Shown here piece after piece: positions 26,707-36,631 of a DNA stretch of 64,000 nt. A model generated the notes under the pieces. The model was given only the letters and a program-made list of their open reading frames with translations, was not told the origin of the DNA and searched no databases. Where the stretch lies: NCBI RefSeq assembly GCF_017894365.1, contig NZ_CP059467.1:2356001-2420000 (forward strand). Reading direction: 5' to 3'. Position 1 is the first letter of the stretch; the number at the start of each line of letters is the position of its first letter. This DNA comes from Aromatoleum bremense (lineage in GTDB: Bacteria > Pseudomonadota > Gammaproteobacteria > Burkholderiales > Rhodocyclaceae). A program made the translations under genes and the position numbers.

Positions 26707-26736
26707 TTGCATTCATAATTATGGATAAAGTATTAT
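26707..26736 (+). promoter_or_regulatory. Predicted mcm promoter with palindromic operator
   Basis: TTGCAT (26707-26712) and TATTAT (26731-26736) are separated by 18 bp and form a plausible sigma-70 promoter toward mcm. A perfect palindrome CATAATTATG (26714-26723) lies between the two boxes, where binding of the divergent GntR-type regulator would block RNA polymerase. The resulting leader would be about 260 nt. Confidence 0.5.
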
Positions 26737-26863
26737 TCCGCGGTCGGCACAAGTCAACTTCCGGCGCGCGGCGTAGCATGGGAGTGCCAAGGGTTCAGGA
26801 ATGCGCTGAACCTGCGGCGAGGGAAGGGAGAGCGCTACGCTGCAGGCGCAGGAGCGTCGGCGG

Positions 26864-26891
26864 CCGCCCGCGGGGTCCGTTCCGCGGGCGG
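26864..26891 (+). other. GC-rich leader hairpin upstream of mcm
   Basis: CCGCCCGCGG (26864-26873) and CCGCGGGCGG (26882-26891) form a perfect 10-bp stem with an 8-nt loop inside the long mcm leader. A weaker GCCGC/GCGGC hairpin around a T run follows near 26970-26986, shortly before the start codon. Possible attenuation or mRNA-stability element. The 26654-27005 interval otherwise holds only the promoter described. Confidence 0.4.
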
Positions 26892-27005
26892 TCTCGTCGC
26901 CGCCAGTTCGTTGTTGGCCCGGTTTCCGTCGGGTTTCGACCCGGTTCGCGTTTTACCGAATATCGCACCGCCGCTTTTTGCGGCCCTGAACAGAGAGGGT
27001 TTGTC

Positions 27006-29171
27006 ATGTCGAACGCCAAGATGCCGGCGTACCCCCAGCCGGATATGGACGCCTGGAAGAAGGCCGCGGCGAAGCACGCGCCCGAAGGCGATGTCGAGAA
27101 GCTGAACTGGATCACCCCCGAGGGGATCGCGGTGAAGCCGCTGTATACGAAGGCCGACGTCGCCGACCTGCAGCATGTCGACACGCTGCCGGGCTTCGAG
27201 CCGTTCCTGCGCGGGCCGCAGCCGACGATGTACGCGGTCAAGCCATGGACGATCCGGCAGTACGCGGGCTTCTCGACCGCCGAGGAGTCGAACGCGTTCT
27301 ATCGCAAGGCGCTCGCCGCCGGCGGCCAAGGCGTGTCGGTCGCGTTCGACCTCGCGACGCACCGCGGCTACGATTCCGACCATCCGCGCGTCACCGGCGA
27401 CGTCGGCAAGGCCGGGGTTGCGATCGACTCCGTCGAAGACATGAAGATCCTCTTCGACAGCATCCCGCTCGACAAGGTGTCGGTGTCGATGACGATGAAC
27501 GGCGCGGTGCTGCCGATCCTCGCCGGCTACATCGTCGCCGCCGAGGAACAGGGCGTGCCGCAGGACAAGCTCTCGGGGACCATCCAGAACGACATCCTCA
27601 AGGAGTTCATGGTTCGCAACACCTATATCTATCCGCCGACGCCGTCGATGAAGATCATCGCCGACATCTTCGGCTACACCGCGCAGCACATGCCGAAGTT
27701 CAACTCGATCTCGATTTCCGGCTATCACATCCAGGAAGCCGGTGCGAACCAGGCAATCGAGCTCGCGTTCACGCTCGCCGACGGGCTCGAATATGTCCGC
27801 ACCGGCATCAACAGCGGCATGGACGTCGACGCATTCGCCGGCCGGCTGTCATTCTTCTGGGCGGTCGGGATGAACTTCTATCTCGAAGTCGCGAAGATGC
27901 GCGCCGCGCGCCTCTTGTGGTGGCGGATCATGAAGGGCTTCAACCCGAAGAGCGCGAAGTCGATGATGCTGCGCACGCACAGCCAGACCTCGGGCTGGTC
28001 GCTGACCGAGCAGGACCCGTACAACAACGTCGTGCGCACGACGATCGAGGCGATGGCAGCCGTCTTCGGCGGCACGCAGTCGCTGCACACCAACGCGCTG
28101 GATGAAGCGATCGCGCTGCCGACCGAGTTCTCGGCGCGCATCGCGCGCAACACGCAGATCATCATCCAGGAAGAGACGCACATCTGTAACGTCGTCGATC
28201 CGTGGGCCGGCTCCTACATGATGGAGAAGCTCACGCAGGACATGGCCGACACCGCGTGGAACTTGATCGAGGAGATCGAGGCGATGGGCGGCATGACGAA
28301 GGCCGTCGAGTCCGGCTGGGCGAAGATGAAGGTCGAGGAATGCGCCGCCGAGAAGCAGGCGAAGATCGACTCGGGCCAGGACGTCATCGTCGGCGTGAAC
28401 AAGTACAAGCTCGCGAAGGAAGACCCGATCGAGATCCTCGACATCGACAACCACGCGGTGCGCGATTCGCAGATCACGCGGCTGAAGAAGATTCGCGCGA
28501 CGCGCGACGCGGCGGCGGTGCAGGCGGCGCTCGACGCGCTGACCGCGTGTGCCGAAGGCGCCGGCGGCAACCTGCTCGACCTCGCGGTGAAGGCGGTGCG
28601 ACTGCGGGCGACGGTCGGCGAAGTGTCGGACGCGCTCGAAAAAGTGTTTGGCCGCTACCGCGCGAACCCGCAGGCGGTGTCCGGCGTGTATGGCGCGGTC
28701 GTCGAGAACGATGCGGACTGGAAAGCGCTGAAAGCCGACATCGAAGCGTTCGTCGCCGAGGAAGGCCGGCGCCCGCGCATCATGATCGCGAAGCTCGGCC
28801 AGGACGGCCACGACCGCGGCGCGAAAGTCGTCGCCTCGGCATTCGCCGACCTCGGCTTCGACATCGACATCGGCCCGCTCTTCCAGACGCCGGAAGAAGC
28901 CGCGCGCCACGCGGTCGAGAACGATGTCCACGCGATCGGCTGCTCGAGCCTCGCCGCCGGCCACAAGACGCTCGTGCCGGAGATCATCGACGGCCTGAAG
29001 CAGCTCGGCGCCGGCGACATCGTCGTCTTCGTCGGCGGCGTGATCCCCGCGCAGGACTACGACGGGCTGTACGCGGCCGGCGCGAAAGGCATTTTCGGCC
29101 CGGGCACGCCGATCCAGACCGCGGCGCGCGAAGTGCTGAAGCAGATCCGCGCGGCGCGCGTCAAGGCGTGA
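27006..29171 (+). CDS. scpA: Methylmalonyl-CoA mutase (single-chain)
   Basis: 721 residues from ATG 27006; GAGAGGG lies six bases upstream. The catalytic TIM-barrel domain (about 20-560) shows [39 protein letters not shown] and [20 protein letters not shown]. The C-terminal cobalamin-binding domain (about 590-720) has [14 protein letters not shown], the His ligand being about residue 602, plus [12 protein letters not shown]. It converts (R)-methylmalonyl-CoA to succinyl-CoA with adenosylcobalamin. It is followed by its chaperone meaB and by propionyl-CoA carboxylase genes, together giving propionyl-CoA to succinyl-CoA. A GntR regulator is divergent upstream. Confidence 0.96.
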
Positions 29172-29179
29172 TTACGGGC

Positions 29180-29256
29180 GTAGGGCGGAAAAGCGTAGCG
29201 CCTTCCGCCAGCGGTATGACATGCGGCGGAAGGCGCCTTCGGCTTTTCCGCCCTAC
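29180..29256. repeat. Long imperfect hairpin between mcm and meaB
   Basis: Outer arms GTAGGGCGGAAAAGC (29180-29194) and GCTTTTCCGCCCTAC (29242-29256) pair over 15 bp. Inner arms GCGCCTTCCGCC (29198-29209) and GGCGGAAGGCGC (29225-29236) pair over 12 bp. The loop is about 15 nt. It starts 8 bp after the mcm stop. This is a REP/palindromic-unit-like element that may stabilise the mcm mRNA or lower readthrough into meaB. Confidence 0.75.
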
Positions 29257-29280
29257 GAGAGTTACGAGAGCTACGAGAGC
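29254..29280 (+). repeat. 9-bp tandem repeat, three units
   Basis: Three consecutive copies of TACGAGAGT/C directly abut the right arm of the preceding hairpin. Too short for a CRISPR or regulatory array. It probably arose by slippage next to the palindromic element. Confidence 0.6.
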
Positions 29281-29328
29281 TGTTGCCCCGGCGGAACCGT
29301 CCCGCGAAGTGATGCACCCGACGTATCG

Positions 29329-30369
29329 ATGCCGATGAACAAATCCGAACGCCTGCCGGAATCCAGGGCCGATTTCGTGCCCGAGCTCGACGCCGCCGAC
29401 CGCGCCTTGGTCGACGGCGTGCTAGCCGGACAACTACGCCCACTGGCGAAGACGATCACGCTGATCGAGTCGTCGCGCGAGGACCATCAGGCGCGCGCGC
29501 ACAAAGTAATGGAGGCGCTGTTGCCGGCGAGCGGCAATGCGCTGCGCATCGGCATATCCGGCGTGCCCGGCGTCGGCAAGTCGACGTTCATCGAGGCGCT
29601 GGGCCTGTACCTGATCGAACAGGGGCATCGCGTCGCGGTGCTCGCGGTCGATCCGTCGTCTTCGGTGACCGGGGGCTCGATCCTCGGCGACAAGACGCGC
29701 ATGGAGATGCTGTCGCAGCGCACCGAAGCGTATATCCGCCCCAGTCCGTCGGCCGGTTCGCTCGGCGGCGTCGCAGCGAAGACGCGCGAGACGATGCTCG
29801 TGTGCGAGGCGGCGGGCTTCGACGTGATCATTGTCGAGACGGTCGGCGTCGGCCAGTCGGAGACCGCCGTCGCCGGCATGACCGACATCTTCTGCCTGCT
29901 GCAGCTGCCGAATGCCGGCGACGACCTGCAGGCGATCAAGAAGGGGATCATGGAGATCGCCGACCTGATCGTCATCAACAAGGCCGACATCGATGCGCGC
30001 GCGGCGCAGCTCGCGAAATCCCAGATGAAGAGTGCGCTGATGATGTTCCGCCACGCGTCGCCGAACTGGACGCCGCCGGTGCTGACGCTGTCGGCGCTGC
30101 AGAAGGACAGTGTCGCCGGGTTCTGGGACGAAGTGAAGCGCTACCGGGACACGCTGAGGCCGACCGGAGAGTTCGACGCGAAGCGCCGCCATCAGGCGCT
30201 CGCGTGGATGTGGGAAATGATCGACGGCGGCCTGCGCAGCCGCTTTCGCAGCCACCCGCAGGTGAAGCACGAGTTGCCCGGGCTTGCCCGCGCGGTCGAA
30301 GAGGGCGCGACCACGCCGTCGGCCGCCGCGATGCGCCTGCTCGGCTATATGGAAAAACCGTCACAGTAG
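29329..30369 (+). CDS. meaB: Methylmalonyl-CoA mutase-associated GTPase MeaB
   Basis: About 346 residues from ATG 29329; a second ATG follows two codons later. G-protein motifs: P-loop [17 protein letters not shown], base-II-type [20 protein letters not shown], Walker [20 protein letters not shown], and NKAD ([13 protein letters not shown]). The C-terminal helices resemble the dimerisation arm of MeaB. It protects the mutase, gating cofactor loading and release. It follows mcm after a 157-bp spacer containing a large hairpin, and precedes pccB by 53 bp. Also known as ArgK; the mutase context makes MeaB the better name. Confidence 0.95.
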
Positions 30370-30422
30370 CGCGGAAAACGAAATTTCGGCGCCGCCAAAA
30401 GCGAAGCACAAGGAGGTTTTCA

Positions 30423-31955
<1,533 letters not shown>

Positions 31956-31984
31956 CCGTTCATCGCTCTGAATTGAGGTAAGAA

Positions 31985-32110
31985 ATGTTCAAGAAGATTC
32001 TGATCGCGAACCGGGGTGACCAGCCGCGCAGCGGCGCAGCGACGAAGTCACATTGCCTTGCACGCGCAGCGTGCCGAGGCGATTTCACCGCGGAGACCGC
32101 CAATGTTTAA
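31985..32110 (+). pseudogene. Diverged duplicate of the pccA 5' end, readable as a 41-codon ORF
   Basis: ATG 31985, with GAGG seven bases before it, opens with MFKKILIANRG, the same first eleven residues as PccA. The DNA differs from the pccA start at four third-codon positions in about 35 bases. The reading then diverges (DQPRSGAATKSHC) and stops at TAA 32108-32110, which overlaps the real pccA start region (ATG 32103). It may be a relic of a second biotin-carboxylase gene, or a leader peptide coupling translation to pccA. Whether it is translated is unknown. Confidence 0.6.
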
Positions 32111-32145
32111 GAAGATCCTGATCGCAAACCGCGGTGAAATCGCCT
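32077..32145 (+). promoter_or_regulatory. 17-bp inverted repeat enclosing the pccA start
   Basis: AGGCGATTTCACCGCGG (32077-32093) is the exact reverse complement of CCGCGGTGAAATCGCCT (32129-32145) inside pccA codons 9-15. The 35-nt loop holds the start codon (32103), and the ribosome-binding GGAGA (32092-32096) straddles the stem edge. In mRNA this would be a strong hairpin able to modulate initiation. The upstream arm looks like an inverted copy of the pccA 5' coding sequence. Confidence 0.65.
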
Positions 32146-34091
32146 GCCGCGTCATCAAGACCGCCCGCAAAATGGGCATCAAGACCGTTGCCGTGTATTC
32201 CGAGGCCGACCGCGACGCGCTGTTCGTCGACCTGGCCGACGAAGGCGTGTGCATCGGACCGGCGGCGTCCAAAGAGTCGTATCTGGTCATCGACAAGATC
32301 ATCGCCGCGTGCAAGCAGACCGGCGCGGAAGCGGTACACCCGGGTTACGGCTTCCTGTCCGAGAACGCCGAGTTCTCGCGCCGGCTCGAGGAAGAAGGTA
32401 TCGTTTTCATCGGGCCGAAGCACTACTCGGTCGGCCAGATGGGCGACAAGATCGCGTCGAAGAAGCTCGCCAAGGAAGCCAAGGTCAACACGATTCCGGG
32501 CTACGCCGACGCGATCGACACCGCCGAGCAGGCGGTCGAGATCGCCAAGGGCATCGGCTACCCGGTGATGATCAAGGCTTCGGCAGGCGGCGGTGGCAAA
32601 GGTCTGCGCGTCGCATTCAACGACCAGGAGTGCTTCGAAGGCTTCACGTCGTGCCGCAACGAAGCGAAGACCGCGTTCGGCGACGACCGCATCCTGATCG
32701 AGAAATACGTGCTCGAGCCGCGCCACATCGAGATCCAGGTGCTGGGCGACGCGCACGGCAACGTCGTGTACCTGCACGAGCGCGAGTGCTCGATCCAGCG
32801 CCGCCACCAGAAAGTCATCGAAGAGGCGCCGAGTCCGTTCCTCGACGCGGCGACCCGGCGCGCGATGGGCGAGCAGGCGGTCGCGCTCGCGAAGGCGGTG
32901 CAATACCAGTCGGCCGGCACGGTGGAATTCGTCGTCGGCGCCGACAAGTCGTTCTACTTCCTCGAGATGAACACCCGGCTGCAGGTCGAGCACCCGGTCA
33001 CCGAGATGATCACGGGGCTCGATCTCGTCGAGCAGATGATTCGCGTCGCCGCCGGCGAGAAGCTCGCGTTCTGCCAGGAAGACATCCCGCTCAACGGCTG
33101 GGCGATGGAGTGCCGCATCAACGCCGAAGACCCGTTCCGCGGCTTCCTGCCGTCGACCGGGCGGCTCGTGAAATTCCAGCCGCCTGTTTCGGTCGAGGGC
33201 CAGGTGCGCGTCGATACCGGCGTGTATGAAGGCGGCGAGATCTCGATGTTCTACGATTCGATGATCGCGAAGCTGATCACGCACGGCGCGAACCGCGACC
33301 AGGCGATCGAGCGGATGCGCGACGCGCTCAACGCGTTCGTGATCCGCGGCATCAGTTCGAACATCCCGTTCCAGGCCGCGCTGATGCAGCATCCGCGCTT
33401 CGTCTCGGGGCACTTCAACACGGGGTTCATCGCCGAGGAGTACCCGAAGGGCTTCGACGCTTCGATGGTGCCGCACGACGACCCGACGCTGTTCATCGCG
33501 GCCGCCGCCGCGCTGCACCGCCATTTCGAGGACCGCGACGCGCAGATCTCCGGGCAGATGCCGGGCCACGAGCGGATCGTCAGCGACAAATACACGGTGA
33601 TGCGCGGTGATGAACGCAGCCTTGTGACGGTCGTGCCGGCTGTGGGTGGCTACGACGTGAAGCTCGCCGGCGAGACGTTCGCGGTGCGCACCGACTGGAA
33701 GTTCGGCGACGCGCTGATGAACGGTACGCTCAACGGCAAGCCGTTCACGATCCAGGTCGCCCGCACCGGCCTGCGCTATCGCCTGTCGCACAACGGTACG
33801 CACGCGGTGCTGCTGGTGATGAGCGCCCGGTGGGCGGAATTGCAGGCGCTGATGCCGACCAAAGTGCCGCCGGACCTGTCGCGTTTCCTGCTGTCGCCGA
33901 TGCCGGGGCTGCTGCGCGAGATCGCGGTGCGCGAAGGTCAGGAGGTCAAGGCGGGCGAGAAGCTTGCGGTCATCGAGGCAATGAAGATGGAGAACGTCCT
34001 CAAGGCCGAGCAGGACGGCAAGGTGAAGAAGATCGTCGCCACGGCTGGCGCCAGCCTCGCGGTGGACGAGGTGATCGTCGAGTTCGAGTAA
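32103..34091 (+). CDS. pccA: Propionyl-CoA carboxylase alpha subunit (biotin carboxylase/BCCP)
   Basis: About 662 residues from ATG 32103 (GGAGA seven bases upstream). The biotin carboxylase N-domain (MFKKILIANRGEIACRVIKT) is followed by ATP-grasp with KASAGGGGKGLRVAFNDQE and HERECSIQRRHQKVIEEAPS, then FLEMNTRLQVEHPVTEMITG. The BT linker spans about 460-580, and the C-terminal biotinyl domain has EAMKMENVLKAEQDGKV, with biotin-Lys at about residue 628. It carboxylates its own biotin for PccB. The open frame upstream of 32103 is not family-like. The operon terminates 54 bp later. Confidence 0.95.
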   Translation: MFKKILIANRGEIACRVIKTARKMGIKTVAVYSEADRDALFVDLADEGVCIGPAASKESYLVIDKIIAACKQTGAEAVHPGYGFLSENAEFSRRLEEEGIVFIGPKHYSVGQMGDKIASKKLAKEAKVNTIPGYADAIDTAEQAVEIAKGIGYPVMIKASAGGGGKGLRVAFNDQECFEGFTSCRNEAKTAFGDDRILIEKYVLEPRHIEIQVLGDAHGNVVYLHERECSIQRRHQKVIEEAPSPFLDAATRRAMGEQAVALAKAVQYQSAGTVEFVVGADKSFYFLEMNTRLQVEHPVTEMITGLDLVEQMIRVAAGEKLAFCQEDIPLNGWAMECRINAEDPFRGFLPSTGRLVKFQPPVSVEGQVRVDTGVYEGGEISMFYDSMIAKLITHGANRDQAIERMRDALNAFVIRGISSNIPFQAALMQHPRFVSGHFNTGFIAEEYPKGFDASMVPHDDPTLFIAAAAALHRHFEDRDAQISGQMPGHERIVSDKYTVMRGDERSLVTVVPAVGGYDVKLAGETFAVRTDWKFGDALMNGTLNGKPFTIQVARTGLRYRLSHNGTHAVLLVMSARWAELQALMPTKVPPDLSRFLLSPMPGLLREIAVREGQEVKAGEKLAVIEAMKMENVLKAEQDGKVKKIVATAGASLAVDEVIVEFE

Positions 34092-34144
34092 CGGCGGTTC
34101 CGCTGCGATAACCCGGCCGCGCGATCCTGGTGGGGGCGGTCTGG

Positions 34145-34181
34145 GAAAAGGGCTCCTCGAGGTGAGCCCTTTTCTTTTTCC
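34145..34181 (+). terminator. Rho-independent terminator after pccA
   Basis: GAAAAGGGCTC (34145-34155) and GAGCCCTTTTC (34164-34174) form an 11-bp stem with an 8-nt loop, followed by a T-rich tract (TTTTTC, then more T runs). It ends the mcm-meaB-pccB-pccA unit. The rest of the 458-bp gap to 34549 holds only the promoter described next and no convincing gene. Confidence 0.85.
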
Positions 34182-34332
34182 TTTTTTCTTTTCCCTTTCC
34201 GCCTTTCTCTCTTTCCGCATCCGCGCCACACTCTTCTCGTTGACGTGATCATGATCGATGTGGCCGGAGAGTGATCCCGGGCAATCTCTTGGCAGCGCGG
34301 CGCCTGGTCGTGGCGTCGATGCTCGCATTTCA

Positions 34333-34365
34333 ATATTTGCCCAAATATAAATTGTGAGATATTAT
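34333..34365 (+). promoter_or_regulatory. Predicted promoter and operator of the KamA-like gene
   Basis: TTGCCC (34337-34342) and TATTAT (34360-34365) are spaced by exactly 17 bp in an AT-rich patch. A perfect 16-bp palindrome ATATTTG-CC-CAAATAT (34333-34348) covers the -35 box, suggesting repression by a dimeric regulator. The start codon is about 185 bp downstream. Confidence 0.5.
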
Positions 34366-34549
34366 GGCTGCGCTTCACGAACGCCTGCTGCGTGCCGGCG
34401 TTCGTTCCTGAACGGCAGCGGGTCGCTCACTTCTTCGCGACGTCCTGTACCGCCGCCACAAGACCAACGTTCGACGGACCGCGCATTACCCCTTGATCGC
34501 CTTCGCGGGGACTTCGCGTGCCGGTCCGGAACGAGATCAGGAGACATCC

Positions 34550-35938
34550 ATGACGGCCCAAGCCCAGTCCCTTACCCGCCCGATCACTTTCAACGCCGCG
34601 CGCTTCGAGCCGGTGCCGTTCAAAGTCTACACGCAGCGCGACTTCGACCAGATCGTGCCGCTCGCGAAGCTCTCGGAGGCGCAGCGCTTCGAGATGAAAG
34701 TCGTGTCGTCGGTGCTGCCGTTTCGCGTCAACCAGTACGTCATCGACGAACTGATCGACTGGGACAACATCCCTGCCGATCCGATGTTCCAGCTGACGTT
34801 CCCGCAGCGCGGCATGCTCGCGCCGGAACATTTCGACCGCATCGCCACTTTGCTCGAGCGCGGCGCGGACAAGAAGGATGTCGACGCGGCGGTCGACGCA
34901 GTGCGCCACGAGCTGAACCCGCACCCCGCCGACCAGATGGAAATGAACATGCCGCGCGACGAGCACGGCAACCGCCTCGAGGGCATTCAGCACAAGTACC
35001 GCGAGACCGTGCTGTTCTTCCCGAGCCAGGGCCAGACCTGCCACAGCTATTGCACGTTCTGCTTCCGCTGGGCGCAGTTCGTCGGCGACAAGGAGCTGCG
35101 CATCGCGTCGTCCGAAGCCGAGACGCTGCACGCCTATCTGCGCCATCATCGCGAAGTCACCGACCTCTTGTTCACCGGCGGCGACCCGATGGTGATGAAA
35201 ACGCGCCACCTGCGGGATTACCTCGAGCCGCTGCTCAAGCCGGAATTCGACCACATCCAGACGATCCGCATCGGCACCAAGGCGCTGACGTTCTGGCCGC
35301 ACCGCTTCCTCGGCGCCGATGATGCCGACGAGCTGATCGCGCTGCTCGAACGCCTCACGGAGGCGGGCAAGCACGTCGCGCTGATGACGCATTTCAACCA
35401 TTGGAAGGAACTCGACACCGAGGCGACGCAGGCCGCGGTGCGGCGGCTGCGCAAGGCCGGCGTCGTGATCCGTGGGCAGGGGCCGCTGATCGCCCACCTC
35501 AACGACGATCCCGACGTGTGGGCGCGGATGTGGAAGACGCAGGTGCGGCTCGGCATCGTGCCCTACTACATGTTCGTCGAGCGCGACACCGGCGCGCGCA
35601 ACTACTTCGAAGTGCCGCTCGTGCGTGCGTGGGAGATTTACCGCGATGCGATGCAGCAGGTATCGGGCTTGGGGCGTACGGCCCGTGGCCCGAGCATGAG
35701 CGCGAGCCCCGGCAAGGTCGAGATCCAGGGCGTGACGGAAGTCGCCGGCGAGAAAGTCTTCGTGCTGCGCTTCATCCAGGGACGAAACCCGGACTGGGTG
35801 CAGCGGCCGTTCTTCGCGAAGTTCGACGCGCAGGCGACGTGGTTCGACCACCTGAAGCCGGCGTTCGGCGACGAAAAATGGTTCTGGGAGGACGAGTACG
35901 AGGCGATCCGCGACGACAAGCTGTCGGCCGCCTGCTGA
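34550..35938 (+). CDS. KamA-family radical SAM protein (lysine 2,3-aminomutase-like)
   Basis: 462 residues from ATG 34550, with AGGAGA six bases upstream. Radical SAM cluster motif Cys164-x3-Cys168-x2-Cys171 in QTCHSYCTFCFRWAQF, followed by a GGDPMVM segment that binds the SAM amino group. A later SMSASPGKVEIQGV resembles the PLP-lysine region of lysine 2,3-aminomutase (PGGGGK), so PLP may be used. It is longer than EpmB (about 340) and has its own C-terminal extension (RPFFAKFDAQATWFDHLKP). An aminomutase on lysine or another amino acid is plausible. It has its own promoter between the pcc operon and a convergent VOC gene; substrate unproven. Confidence 0.78.
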   Translation: MTAQAQSLTRPITFNAARFEPVPFKVYTQRDFDQIVPLAKLSEAQRFEMKVVSSVLPFRVNQYVIDELIDWDNIPADPMFQLTFPQRGMLAPEHFDRIATLLERGADKKDVDAAVDAVRHELNPHPADQMEMNMPRDEHGNRLEGIQHKYRETVLFFPSQGQTCHSYCTFCFRWAQFVGDKELRIASSEAETLHAYLRHHREVTDLLFTGGDPMVMKTRHLRDYLEPLLKPEFDHIQTIRIGTKALTFWPHRFLGADDADELIALLERLTEAGKHVALMTHFNHWKELDTEATQAAVRRLRKAGVVIRGQGPLIAHLNDDPDVWARMWKTQVRLGIVPYYMFVERDTGARNYFEVPLVRAWEIYRDAMQQVSGLGRTARGPSMSASPGKVEIQGVTEVAGEKVFVLRFIQGRNPDWVQRPFFAKFDAQATWFDHLKPAFGDEKWFWEDEYEAIRDDKLSAAC

Positions 35939-35966
35939 AGTCTGCCTGCGTCGCGGGTCGTACATT

Positions 35967-35998
35967 CGCCGGCGTTCGGGTCAAACCGAAGGCCGGCG
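35967..35998. terminator. Bidirectional hairpin between convergent genes
   Basis: CGCCGGCGTTCGG (35967-35979) and CCGAAGGCCGGCG (35986-35998) pair at 12 of 13 positions around a 6-nt loop. The hairpin lies between the stops of the KamA-like and VOC genes. There is no T-tract, so termination would need Rho or rely on stem stability. Confidence 0.55.
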
Positions 35999-36027
35999 CC
36001 GTCTCGTCAAAGCGACGATCCTGCCGG

Positions 36028-36504
36028 TCAGCCCGCAAGGCGCGCGAATGCGTCGACGACTTCCGGCGGCGCCTGCACCAGTTCGACGAGCACGCCTTCG
36101 CCGCCGATCGGGAATTCGTCATTGCCTTTCGGATGCAGGAAAGTGATGTCGAAGCCCGCCGCGCCGCGGCGGATGCCGCCGGGCGCGAACCGCACGCCCT
36201 GCGCCGTGAGCCACTCGACCGCGACCGGCAGATCATCGACCCACAGGCCGACGTGGTTGAGCGGCGTCGCGTGCACCGCGGGCTTCTTTTCGGCATCGAG
36301 CGGCTGCATCAGGTCGACTTCGACCTTGAACGGCCCCTTGCCCATTGCGCAGATGTCCTCGTCGACGTTCTCGCGCTCGCTGACGAAGTTGCCGGTGACT
36401 TCCAGCCCGAGCATGTCCACCCACAGGGTCTTGAGCCGCTCCTTGCTCGGGCCGCCGATGGCGATCTGCTGGATGCCGAGGATCTTGAACGGGCGGTGGG
36501 TCAT
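36028..36504 (-). CDS. VOC-family protein, methylmalonyl-CoA epimerase/glyoxalase-like
   Basis: 158 residues from ATG 36504, with AGGAGA eight bases upstream. Two beta-alpha-beta-beta-beta vicinal oxygen chelate units are visible: [20 protein letters not shown] at the N-terminus and [20 protein letters not shown] in the second half, ending [16 protein letters not shown]. Second-half His and the terminal Glu fit metal ligands. The first-half ligand position, usually His in methylmalonyl-CoA epimerase, reads Gln. Its place near mcm and pcc suggests epimerisation of methylmalonyl-CoA. Another lyase or isomerase role is possible. Confidence 0.7.
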
Positions 36505-36631
36505 TTGGGGAATCTCCTGAATTCGGGCGAGGGAAGGAAACCAAAGCCGGAATTGTAGCGAACGGACGAGGGCGGTGCATGAGCCCCGTACCGGGCCGTC
36601 CGGTCCCGCACCGCCGTCCTGCTCCCCCATG

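Follow-up and report, generated by a model that had tools for sequence, protein, structure and literature searches.

A candidate laterally spreading translational-coupling leader at biotin-carboxylase gene starts in Betaproteobacteria

Biotin-dependent carboxylases commit carbon to fatty acids, propionate and branched-chain metabolism. Among the short repeats of bacterial genomes, Rickettsia palindromic elements sit in frame within a wide range of unrelated genes, whose products they extend, and MITEs carry terminal inverted repeats with a short target-site duplication. Control by short upstream open reading frames (uORFs) is exemplified by E. coli iraD, in which a short uORF acts through translational coupling (PMC5574718), and the GeneTack collection contains a cluster, 697472870, labelled 'Biotin carboxylase' and assigned to translational coupling, with 128 fs-genes from 44 genera (PMC3711429).

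The locus compared here with these systems lies in a 64,000-nucleotide stretch of Aromatoleum bremense (contig NZ_CP059467.1, positions 2,356,001 to 2,420,000), which we call the window and whose coordinates are used throughout, on the forward strand unless stated. Positions 26721-36630 hold what is, to judge from the ORF sequences, a putative methylmalonyl-CoA pathway cluster, with a mutase, a MeaB/ArgK-like GTPase, pccB and pccA, a presumably lysine-2,3-aminomutase-like ORF (34493-35938) and, on the minus strand, an ORF that we assume to be VOC/epimerase-like (36028-36630). The pccA gene (32103..34088, ATG at 32103-32105), downstream of pccB, encodes a 662-aa protein with biotin carboxylase (BC) and biotinyl domains (Pfam Biotin_carb_N, CPSase_L_D2, Biotin_carb_C, PCC_BT and Biotin_lipoyl). 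Between the two genes lies a leader ORF of 41 codons (31985..32107), defined by the ORF list, by identity to relatives with an empty junction and by the conserved placement of its stop; GAGG, 6 nt upstream of its ATG, bears out the initial annotation, which had credited it with a ribosome-binding site of its own. Leader and PccA share residues 1-11, with synonymous differences at codons 2, 5, 8 and 10, exactly the 11 residues and four differences first reported, and codon 12 encodes D in the former and E in the latter. The leader stop, TAA at 32108-32110, does overlap the pccA start region as had been stated, at codons 2-3 (ATG TTT AAG), but the ATG itself is not overlapped.

Compared with two close relatives whose pccA junction is empty, the window carries a net insertion of 118 nt (32017..32134), with imported bases reaching to at least 32138. 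It contains three small hairpins: H1 (GCCGC-GCA-GCGGC, 32023..32035), recognised by covariation and RNAalifold, H2 (GAC-GAA-GTC, 3 pairs, 32041..32049), recognised by covariation, and H3 (GCACGC-GCA-GCGTGC, 32060..32074), recognised by covariation and folding in the window sequence. They are followed by an inverted arm (32078..32093; inverted repeat, covariation and folding), which is the 5' side of a long hairpin, H4, whose 3' arm (32129..32144) lies within pccA codons 9-14 and was imported, at least in its variable bases, along with the 5' arm. The 17-nt inverted repeat described at the outset holds, 32077-32093 and 32129-32145 being exact reverse complements separated by 35 nt. The pccA Shine-Dalgarno (SD) sequence, GGAG at 32092..32095, identified by sequence 7 nt upstream of the ATG, is supplied by the insert and lies half within the H4 stem, the terminal GG of the 5' arm being part of it.

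The pccA frame is also open upstream, through 32016-32102, as far as a GTG at 32016 (691-aa ORF), and that of accC in the same genome is likewise open upstream (485-aa ORF). Gene callers may therefore annotate a false N-terminal extension, and annotators should be warned of this open frame and of the fact that leaders named in databases are mostly 'hypothetical protein'.

Comparison of the junction in relatives, a check that the initial annotation had proposed, returned filled copies as well as empty pccA junctions in two species of the same genus. In these, G007 and G005, the pccA product shares 98% and 95% identity with its window counterpart over 450 residues, and the 60 nt upstream of the junction are identical in the window and in both empty genomes. 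Across 32 bases their gene start is identical to the window leader, whereas the present window pccA start differs from theirs at 6 of the first 36 bases (6, 15, 24, 30, 33 and 36); nucleotides 1-32 of the leader ORF are thus the native pccA 5' end of the two relatives, and the remainder is insert read in the leader frame. To judge from these alignments, the original pccA start survives as the window leader, and the start now in use, with pccA codons 1 to about 12, came along with the insert. The earlier proposal of a relic of a second BC gene that had recombined here was right in so far as a second BC 5' end appears to have recombined, but its direction is reversed, the leader being the native start and the pccA start the import. 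As these ~12 new codons belong to the imported piece, so do the two arms of the long hairpin.

A gain in the window lineage is the simpler history, because deletion from a window-like ancestor would not yield the GGAGAG common to both empty junctions; the argument is one of parsimony and draws on two empty relatives whose junctions are identical. A further three empty junctions (G009, G013 and G011) differ in flanks and starts and have no bearing on gain. Set against the empty G014 and G004, the filled G010 has 1 and 2 mismatches in the leader and 6 and 5 in the main start (per 35 bases), the same pattern as in the window, which taken alone fits gain or loss equally. As part of the explanation that we favour below, the insertion point is probably BC codon 11-12 (..N-R-G / E..).

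Within the window's genome, a DNA search located a single other place, upstream of accC and behind accB, that is 82% identical. There the leader begins MFEKILIANRGD, the insert is the same, the inverted arm matches accC and the leader stop overlaps the accC start. The genome search for a matching BC gene, which the initial annotation had suggested, turned up a copy of the whole arrangement. Neither its attribution to the pccB/pccA pair nor the idea of a private relic survives: the junction holds one copy of an unannotated module, made up of leader, ~80-nt insert and inverted arm, which stands before accC here and before other BC families elsewhere. The module is present at two of the three BC-domain matches of this genome. 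Among 60 relatives, the DNA search returned near-full-length copies (query 1-168 or longer) in G005, G007, G008 (three), G010, G017, G021, G023 and G028, and a degraded copy close to a contig end in G022; the other matches comprise the BC start or short pieces only. At the G022 contig end (L043) the module follows a hydratase-like gene and precedes a start, ATGTTTAATAAA, without BC continuation, which makes it either a degraded copy or an assembly edge.

A protein search with the leader peptide gave 187 matches at E <= 0.01, of which the best 120 are mostly unnamed or 'hypothetical protein', with one named carboxylase alpha subunit; those listed include Variovorax, Xenophilus, Silvimonas, Azoarcus and Thauera. 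Three proteins (P0057, P0077 and P0104) are leaders with different BC-like N-termini (MTMKKVLIANRGD, MPLTMERVHKLLIANRGD); known as proteins alone, they suggest gene-specific leaders at further BC families. A contig scan with leader-peptide patterns yielded 259 relatives, of which 80 loci were kept; the use of these patterns biases leader conservation in this set. By NCBI ranks these loci all belong to Betaproteobacteria bar one in a Nevskia MAG (L086), which is probably mis-binned, since its BC protein matches one from Polaromonas at ~100% identity, with the genes diverging by 3% at 4-fold sites.

A second retrieval used a covariance model built from the insert, with a match threshold of E <= 0.01. 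It matched 41 of 150 genomes at family level (37 at 46 bits or more), 26 of 399 at order level (25 at 53 bits or more, the remaining one, L203, not being the module) and, at class level, this genome alone among 369, all of them lower bounds given the stricter filters in the large scans. At genus level, strong copies number 8 against 72 BC-domain matches at E <= 1e-60; the 72 take in frames longer than 1,100 aa, truncated ends and a single place that appears on two contigs, and a ninth module match, of 28 bits, was discounted. Model matches of 26-32 bits were mostly left out: L152 (26 bits, in G457) and L203 proved on reading not to be the module, L210 was left out, and some stronger matches also lie outside the set read. 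No module copies were found in viral contigs or in E. coli genomes; of 174 plasmid records none reaches 80% query coverage, with matches confined to the BC start among the 20 listed; and Rfam gave no match at E up to 1 for 31800-32400 of the window. The same architecture in many separate assemblies makes chance very unlikely, and with it the assembly artefact that the initial annotation had named as a possible refutation.

The copies share their genomic position. Among the 80 contig-scan loci, 74 lie directly before a BC-like gene, 4 do so via a further module copy and 2 are at a contig edge. The 56 model loci L151-L206 were placed at BC starts by script in 44 cases and by eye in 7 more; the rest are L167, which runs off the contig end, L152 and L203, which are chance matches, and L205 and L206, the upstream copies of tandems at BC starts that the count already includes. 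Every copy with a readable downstream side sits at a BC gene start in Betaproteobacteria. Blastn matches away from BC genes (L045-L050, L062-L066 and L070) were dismissed on reading as chance short matches. At the clustering used, which took 81 copies (one short BC left out), the BC families at module loci number 34, 30, 9, 3, 3, 1 and 1 members. Tandem copies were read in L093, L125, L128, L150 and G082, and match spacings of ~117-121 nt suggest more in G317, G734, G740, G744, G779 and G786. The tandem arrays at L125, L093, L128, L150 and L061 have two modules each, apparently three in L125, with the leader stop of one module at the start of the next; one inner L125 start reads AGG.

Folding of the junction RNA, likewise proposed at the outset, gave -34.2 kcal/mol for 32076-32146 (z = -6.3, 0 of 200 shuffles as good), a less extreme value for the whole 181-nt junction (z = -1.5, 15 of 200 shuffles as good) and nothing better than shuffles for 32010-32075 (z = +0.85); in the minimum-free-energy fold of the single window sequence H3 is present and H1 and H2 are absent. 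Alignment A4 comprises 82 of 87 distinct copies (L082, L109, L116, L120 and L148 were excluded for odd length or start), and alignment A5 the 69 that pass a 95% identity filter. In A4, 96.9% of the cells of H1-H3 and the 16-bp H4 are paired, 17 of the 30 pairs change on both sides, and both-side-changed cells number 174, a figure that 0 of 500 shuffles reached (39.6 +/- 5.1); slid controls gave 10-20. In H2, two of the three pairs are G-C at some loci and A-U at others, with 20 and 32 double changes, all six pairs of H3 show double changes, and the H4 inverted arm has compensatory changes against the gene. RNAalifold recovers H1-H4 when no structure is supplied. H3 and H4 also contain 12 and 43 other mismatched cells, and since the arms of H4 travel jointly, part of its covariation may be co-inheritance. 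The inverted arm, first ascribed to a one-off template switch, is instead a conserved part of the module, with compensatory changes at many BC genes. In the predicted structure of the downstream initiation site, H4 encloses half of the SD in its stem and leaves the AUG in the loop.

In A4 there are 53 G-U cells to 15 A-C cells, as expected if the sense strand folds as RNA, but G-T pairs in single-stranded DNA would give the identical excess. GNA loops, a motif of unusually stable DNA mini-hairpins, occur in H3 (75/82) and H2 (77/82, GAA or GCA in all 77) and less often in H1 (49/82; A4 columns 47-52, 66-68 and 89-91 for H1 to H3). Both observations would suit a DNA-level element, in which C-GNA-G hairpins in the top strand, when single-stranded, mark the module for a transposase or recombinase acting in trans. 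We consider this explanation very improbable, because among the loci read no copy lies off a BC start and no insert has a gene of its own, and because homologous recombination would suffice. Two other pairings were tried and set aside. An alternative helix within the insert (AAATTGCC/GGCGATTT), which would make a two-state switch, has a covariation score equal to that of shuffles (245 of 500). The leader copy as a competitor for the inverted arm shows an excess on some measures (25 double-change cells against 10.5 in shuffles), but more mismatches than H4, with 26 and 16 mismatched cells at two informative pairs where H4 has 8 and 4.

Placement of the leader stop was measured at loci from the covariance model, which ignores the ORF and includes leader codons 10-12. 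The stop lies -21 to +16 nt from the BC start in all 50 measured copies and overlaps it in 38, a count made up of 44 of 44 scripted copies in that range, 32 of them at a TTTAA/TTTGA overlap, and six of six read by eye that overlap the BC start (a seventh by-eye locus, L168, is outside the count). The stop-placement parser required leader-like motifs and the parser that compared leader with main start a GGNGA-like site, which removes copies whose leaders are strongly degraded. Of the 74 copies parsed in the contig-scan set, 66 have a stop that overlaps the BC start. If overlap is precluded by the frame or by codons 2-3, there is a nearby stop instead (UGA in the inverted arm, or a stop at -2, +8 or +16). 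BC codon 2 is TTT at 86 of 93 module-bearing starts against 11 of 21 simple starts, and the distance from leader to start equals 1 modulo 3 in 89 of 94 rows, in which some loci are repeated.

In 32 disjoint pairs of orthologous loci, leader codons 2-11 differ by 107 synonymous and 13 non-synonymous changes and main-start codons by 83 and 3. Between a leader and its own main start there are 113 and 13 (codons 2-10 without codon 3, 46 model-found copies), a count that skipped six loci, including L185 and L196, the latter with three replacements in leader codons 4-9. Leaders may keep their BC-like residues in part through repeated renewal from genuine gene starts. For the insert-coded stretch of the leader a role as a peptide was rejected, the synonymous share being 34 of 147 where 26% is expected. 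In the BC frame of the insert, 59 of 146 changes are synonymous (26% expected), an excess that we ascribe to pairing with gene third positions rather than to an N-terminal extension, because 24 of 94 rows have a stop in the upstream BC frame. Retention of the first leader codons as amino acids, with a hairpin directly after them, would also be anticipated if ribosomes bypassed the insert, hopping from the leader NRG codons to the pccA NRG so that the leader encoded the true N-terminus. Programmed bypassing calls for take-off and landing codons that match; leader and main start agree at Gly codon 11 in 45 of 81 copies, no better than at neighbouring codons, and the main start retains its SD, ATG and conserved codons, which makes bypassing extremely unlikely.

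The inheritance of the module can be followed by comparing its divergence with that of the genes. Leader third positions diverge along with gene 4-fold sites, somewhat faster, and the insert diverges about 3x slower than those sites. For 67 of 81 copies the closest insert lies before a gene of the same BC family (26 when shuffled), which, together with the parallel divergence, argues that much of the inheritance is vertical. Inserts can also be 92% identical across BC genes that are only 44-46% identical, and L036 and L073 have identical inserts although their proteins are 83% identical and 43% of the gene 4-fold sites differ. These sequence comparisons indicate that the module spreads laterally between BC genes, and it is likely that the transfers occur mostly within one BC family and sometimes across families.

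Lateral transfer, tandem copies and a patchy distribution among close relatives would all be expected of a selfish or neutral insertion that spreads by recombination at BC 5' ends and does no harm, since a working start is rebuilt; the patchiness within the genus fits tolerated DNA as well as it fits regulation. The hairpins and the stop placement would then be just what keeps the gene expressed, and a leader stop near the start would aid expression anyway. A merely tolerated insert, however, would need neither H1-H3 pairing kept through many double changes nor divergence so much slower than that of 4-fold sites, and its direct repeats should make deletion easy. We regard a purely selfish or neutral insertion as unlikely.

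Our preferred explanation, which we hold to be probably correct, is that the module is a laterally spreading, BC-specific translational-coupling leader; the sequences show its anatomy, recurrence, insertion, lateral spread, covariation and stop placement, while its effect on expression and its route of recombination are inferred. Insertion would convert the old BC start into a leader ORF that keeps the old ribosome-binding site, and would bring three mini-hairpins, a new SD, the first ~12 codons anew and both arms of the long hairpin. H4 would make it hard for ribosomes to initiate directly on the BC gene; those engaged on the leader would melt H4, end at the stop that overlaps or adjoins the BC AUG and re-initiate there, so that BC output would be the product of leader translation and re-initiation efficiency. 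A leader ORF and hairpin that gate PccA synthesis, as the initial annotation had proposed, would be the best-supported function, and the coupling may lower or tune BC output relative to partner subunits. The module would move most simply by homologous recombination via the common BC 5' end; as its left end coincides in pccA with the extreme edge of the shared stretch, a more specific route is possible. A more far-reaching version, which we offer as tentative, is that of a gene-family-homing riboregulator that moves among the starts of orthologous and paralogous BC genes with a hairpin-matched replacement start and installs shared post-transcriptional control on acetyl-, propionyl- and other acyl-CoA carboxylases throughout Betaproteobacteria, possibly in answer to carboxylase supply or biotin status.

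If the coupling reading is true, a transferable leader that rewires BC starts would be a new route by which a regulatory part spreads, new in that the target's own start is reused as leader and a matched new start is supplied. Sister species with empty and filled junctions and identical upstream flanks offer a test bed for translational coupling, for the tolerance of insertions at important genes and for mobility restricted to a gene family. A coupling leader is, as a functional kind, already known; we know of no precedent for a self-copied leader, a matched imported start and family-restricted spread. A search of titles and abstract openings in the literature, with subscription journals largely outside its scope, found no description of the module.

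Like Rickettsia palindromic elements, the module is a short, hairpin-rich repeat in coding genes without a transposase of its own; it differs in occurring at one gene family, where the protein is restored, and in place of in-frame insertion into diverse genes, all copies read lie at BC starts. With MITEs it shares being short, non-autonomous and repeated. Between the ends of 32017-32134, however, there is no inverted repeat as long as 12 nt, the sole match being the 5-nt GGTGA/TCACC between the left edge and the inverted arm, and the direct repeat, unlike that of MITEs, is ~32-35 nt long and anchored at the start codon, its second copy being imported. The 'Biotin carboxylase' cluster of GeneTack resembles it in that a genome-wide scan flagged BC genes as coupled to an upstream ORF (PMC3711429); the passages of that report seen contain no description of the module and leave the nature of the upstream ORF unstated. 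Coupling uORFs such as that of iraD share with it a short ORF whose stop meets the downstream start, a downstream start held in structure and an output that depends on uORF translation, the last of which would apply to the module by our model. The module differs from them in that its uORF appears to be the old start of the very gene that it precedes, in that its structure pairs with that gene's own codons, and in that it recurs at many BC loci and seems to move laterally among them.
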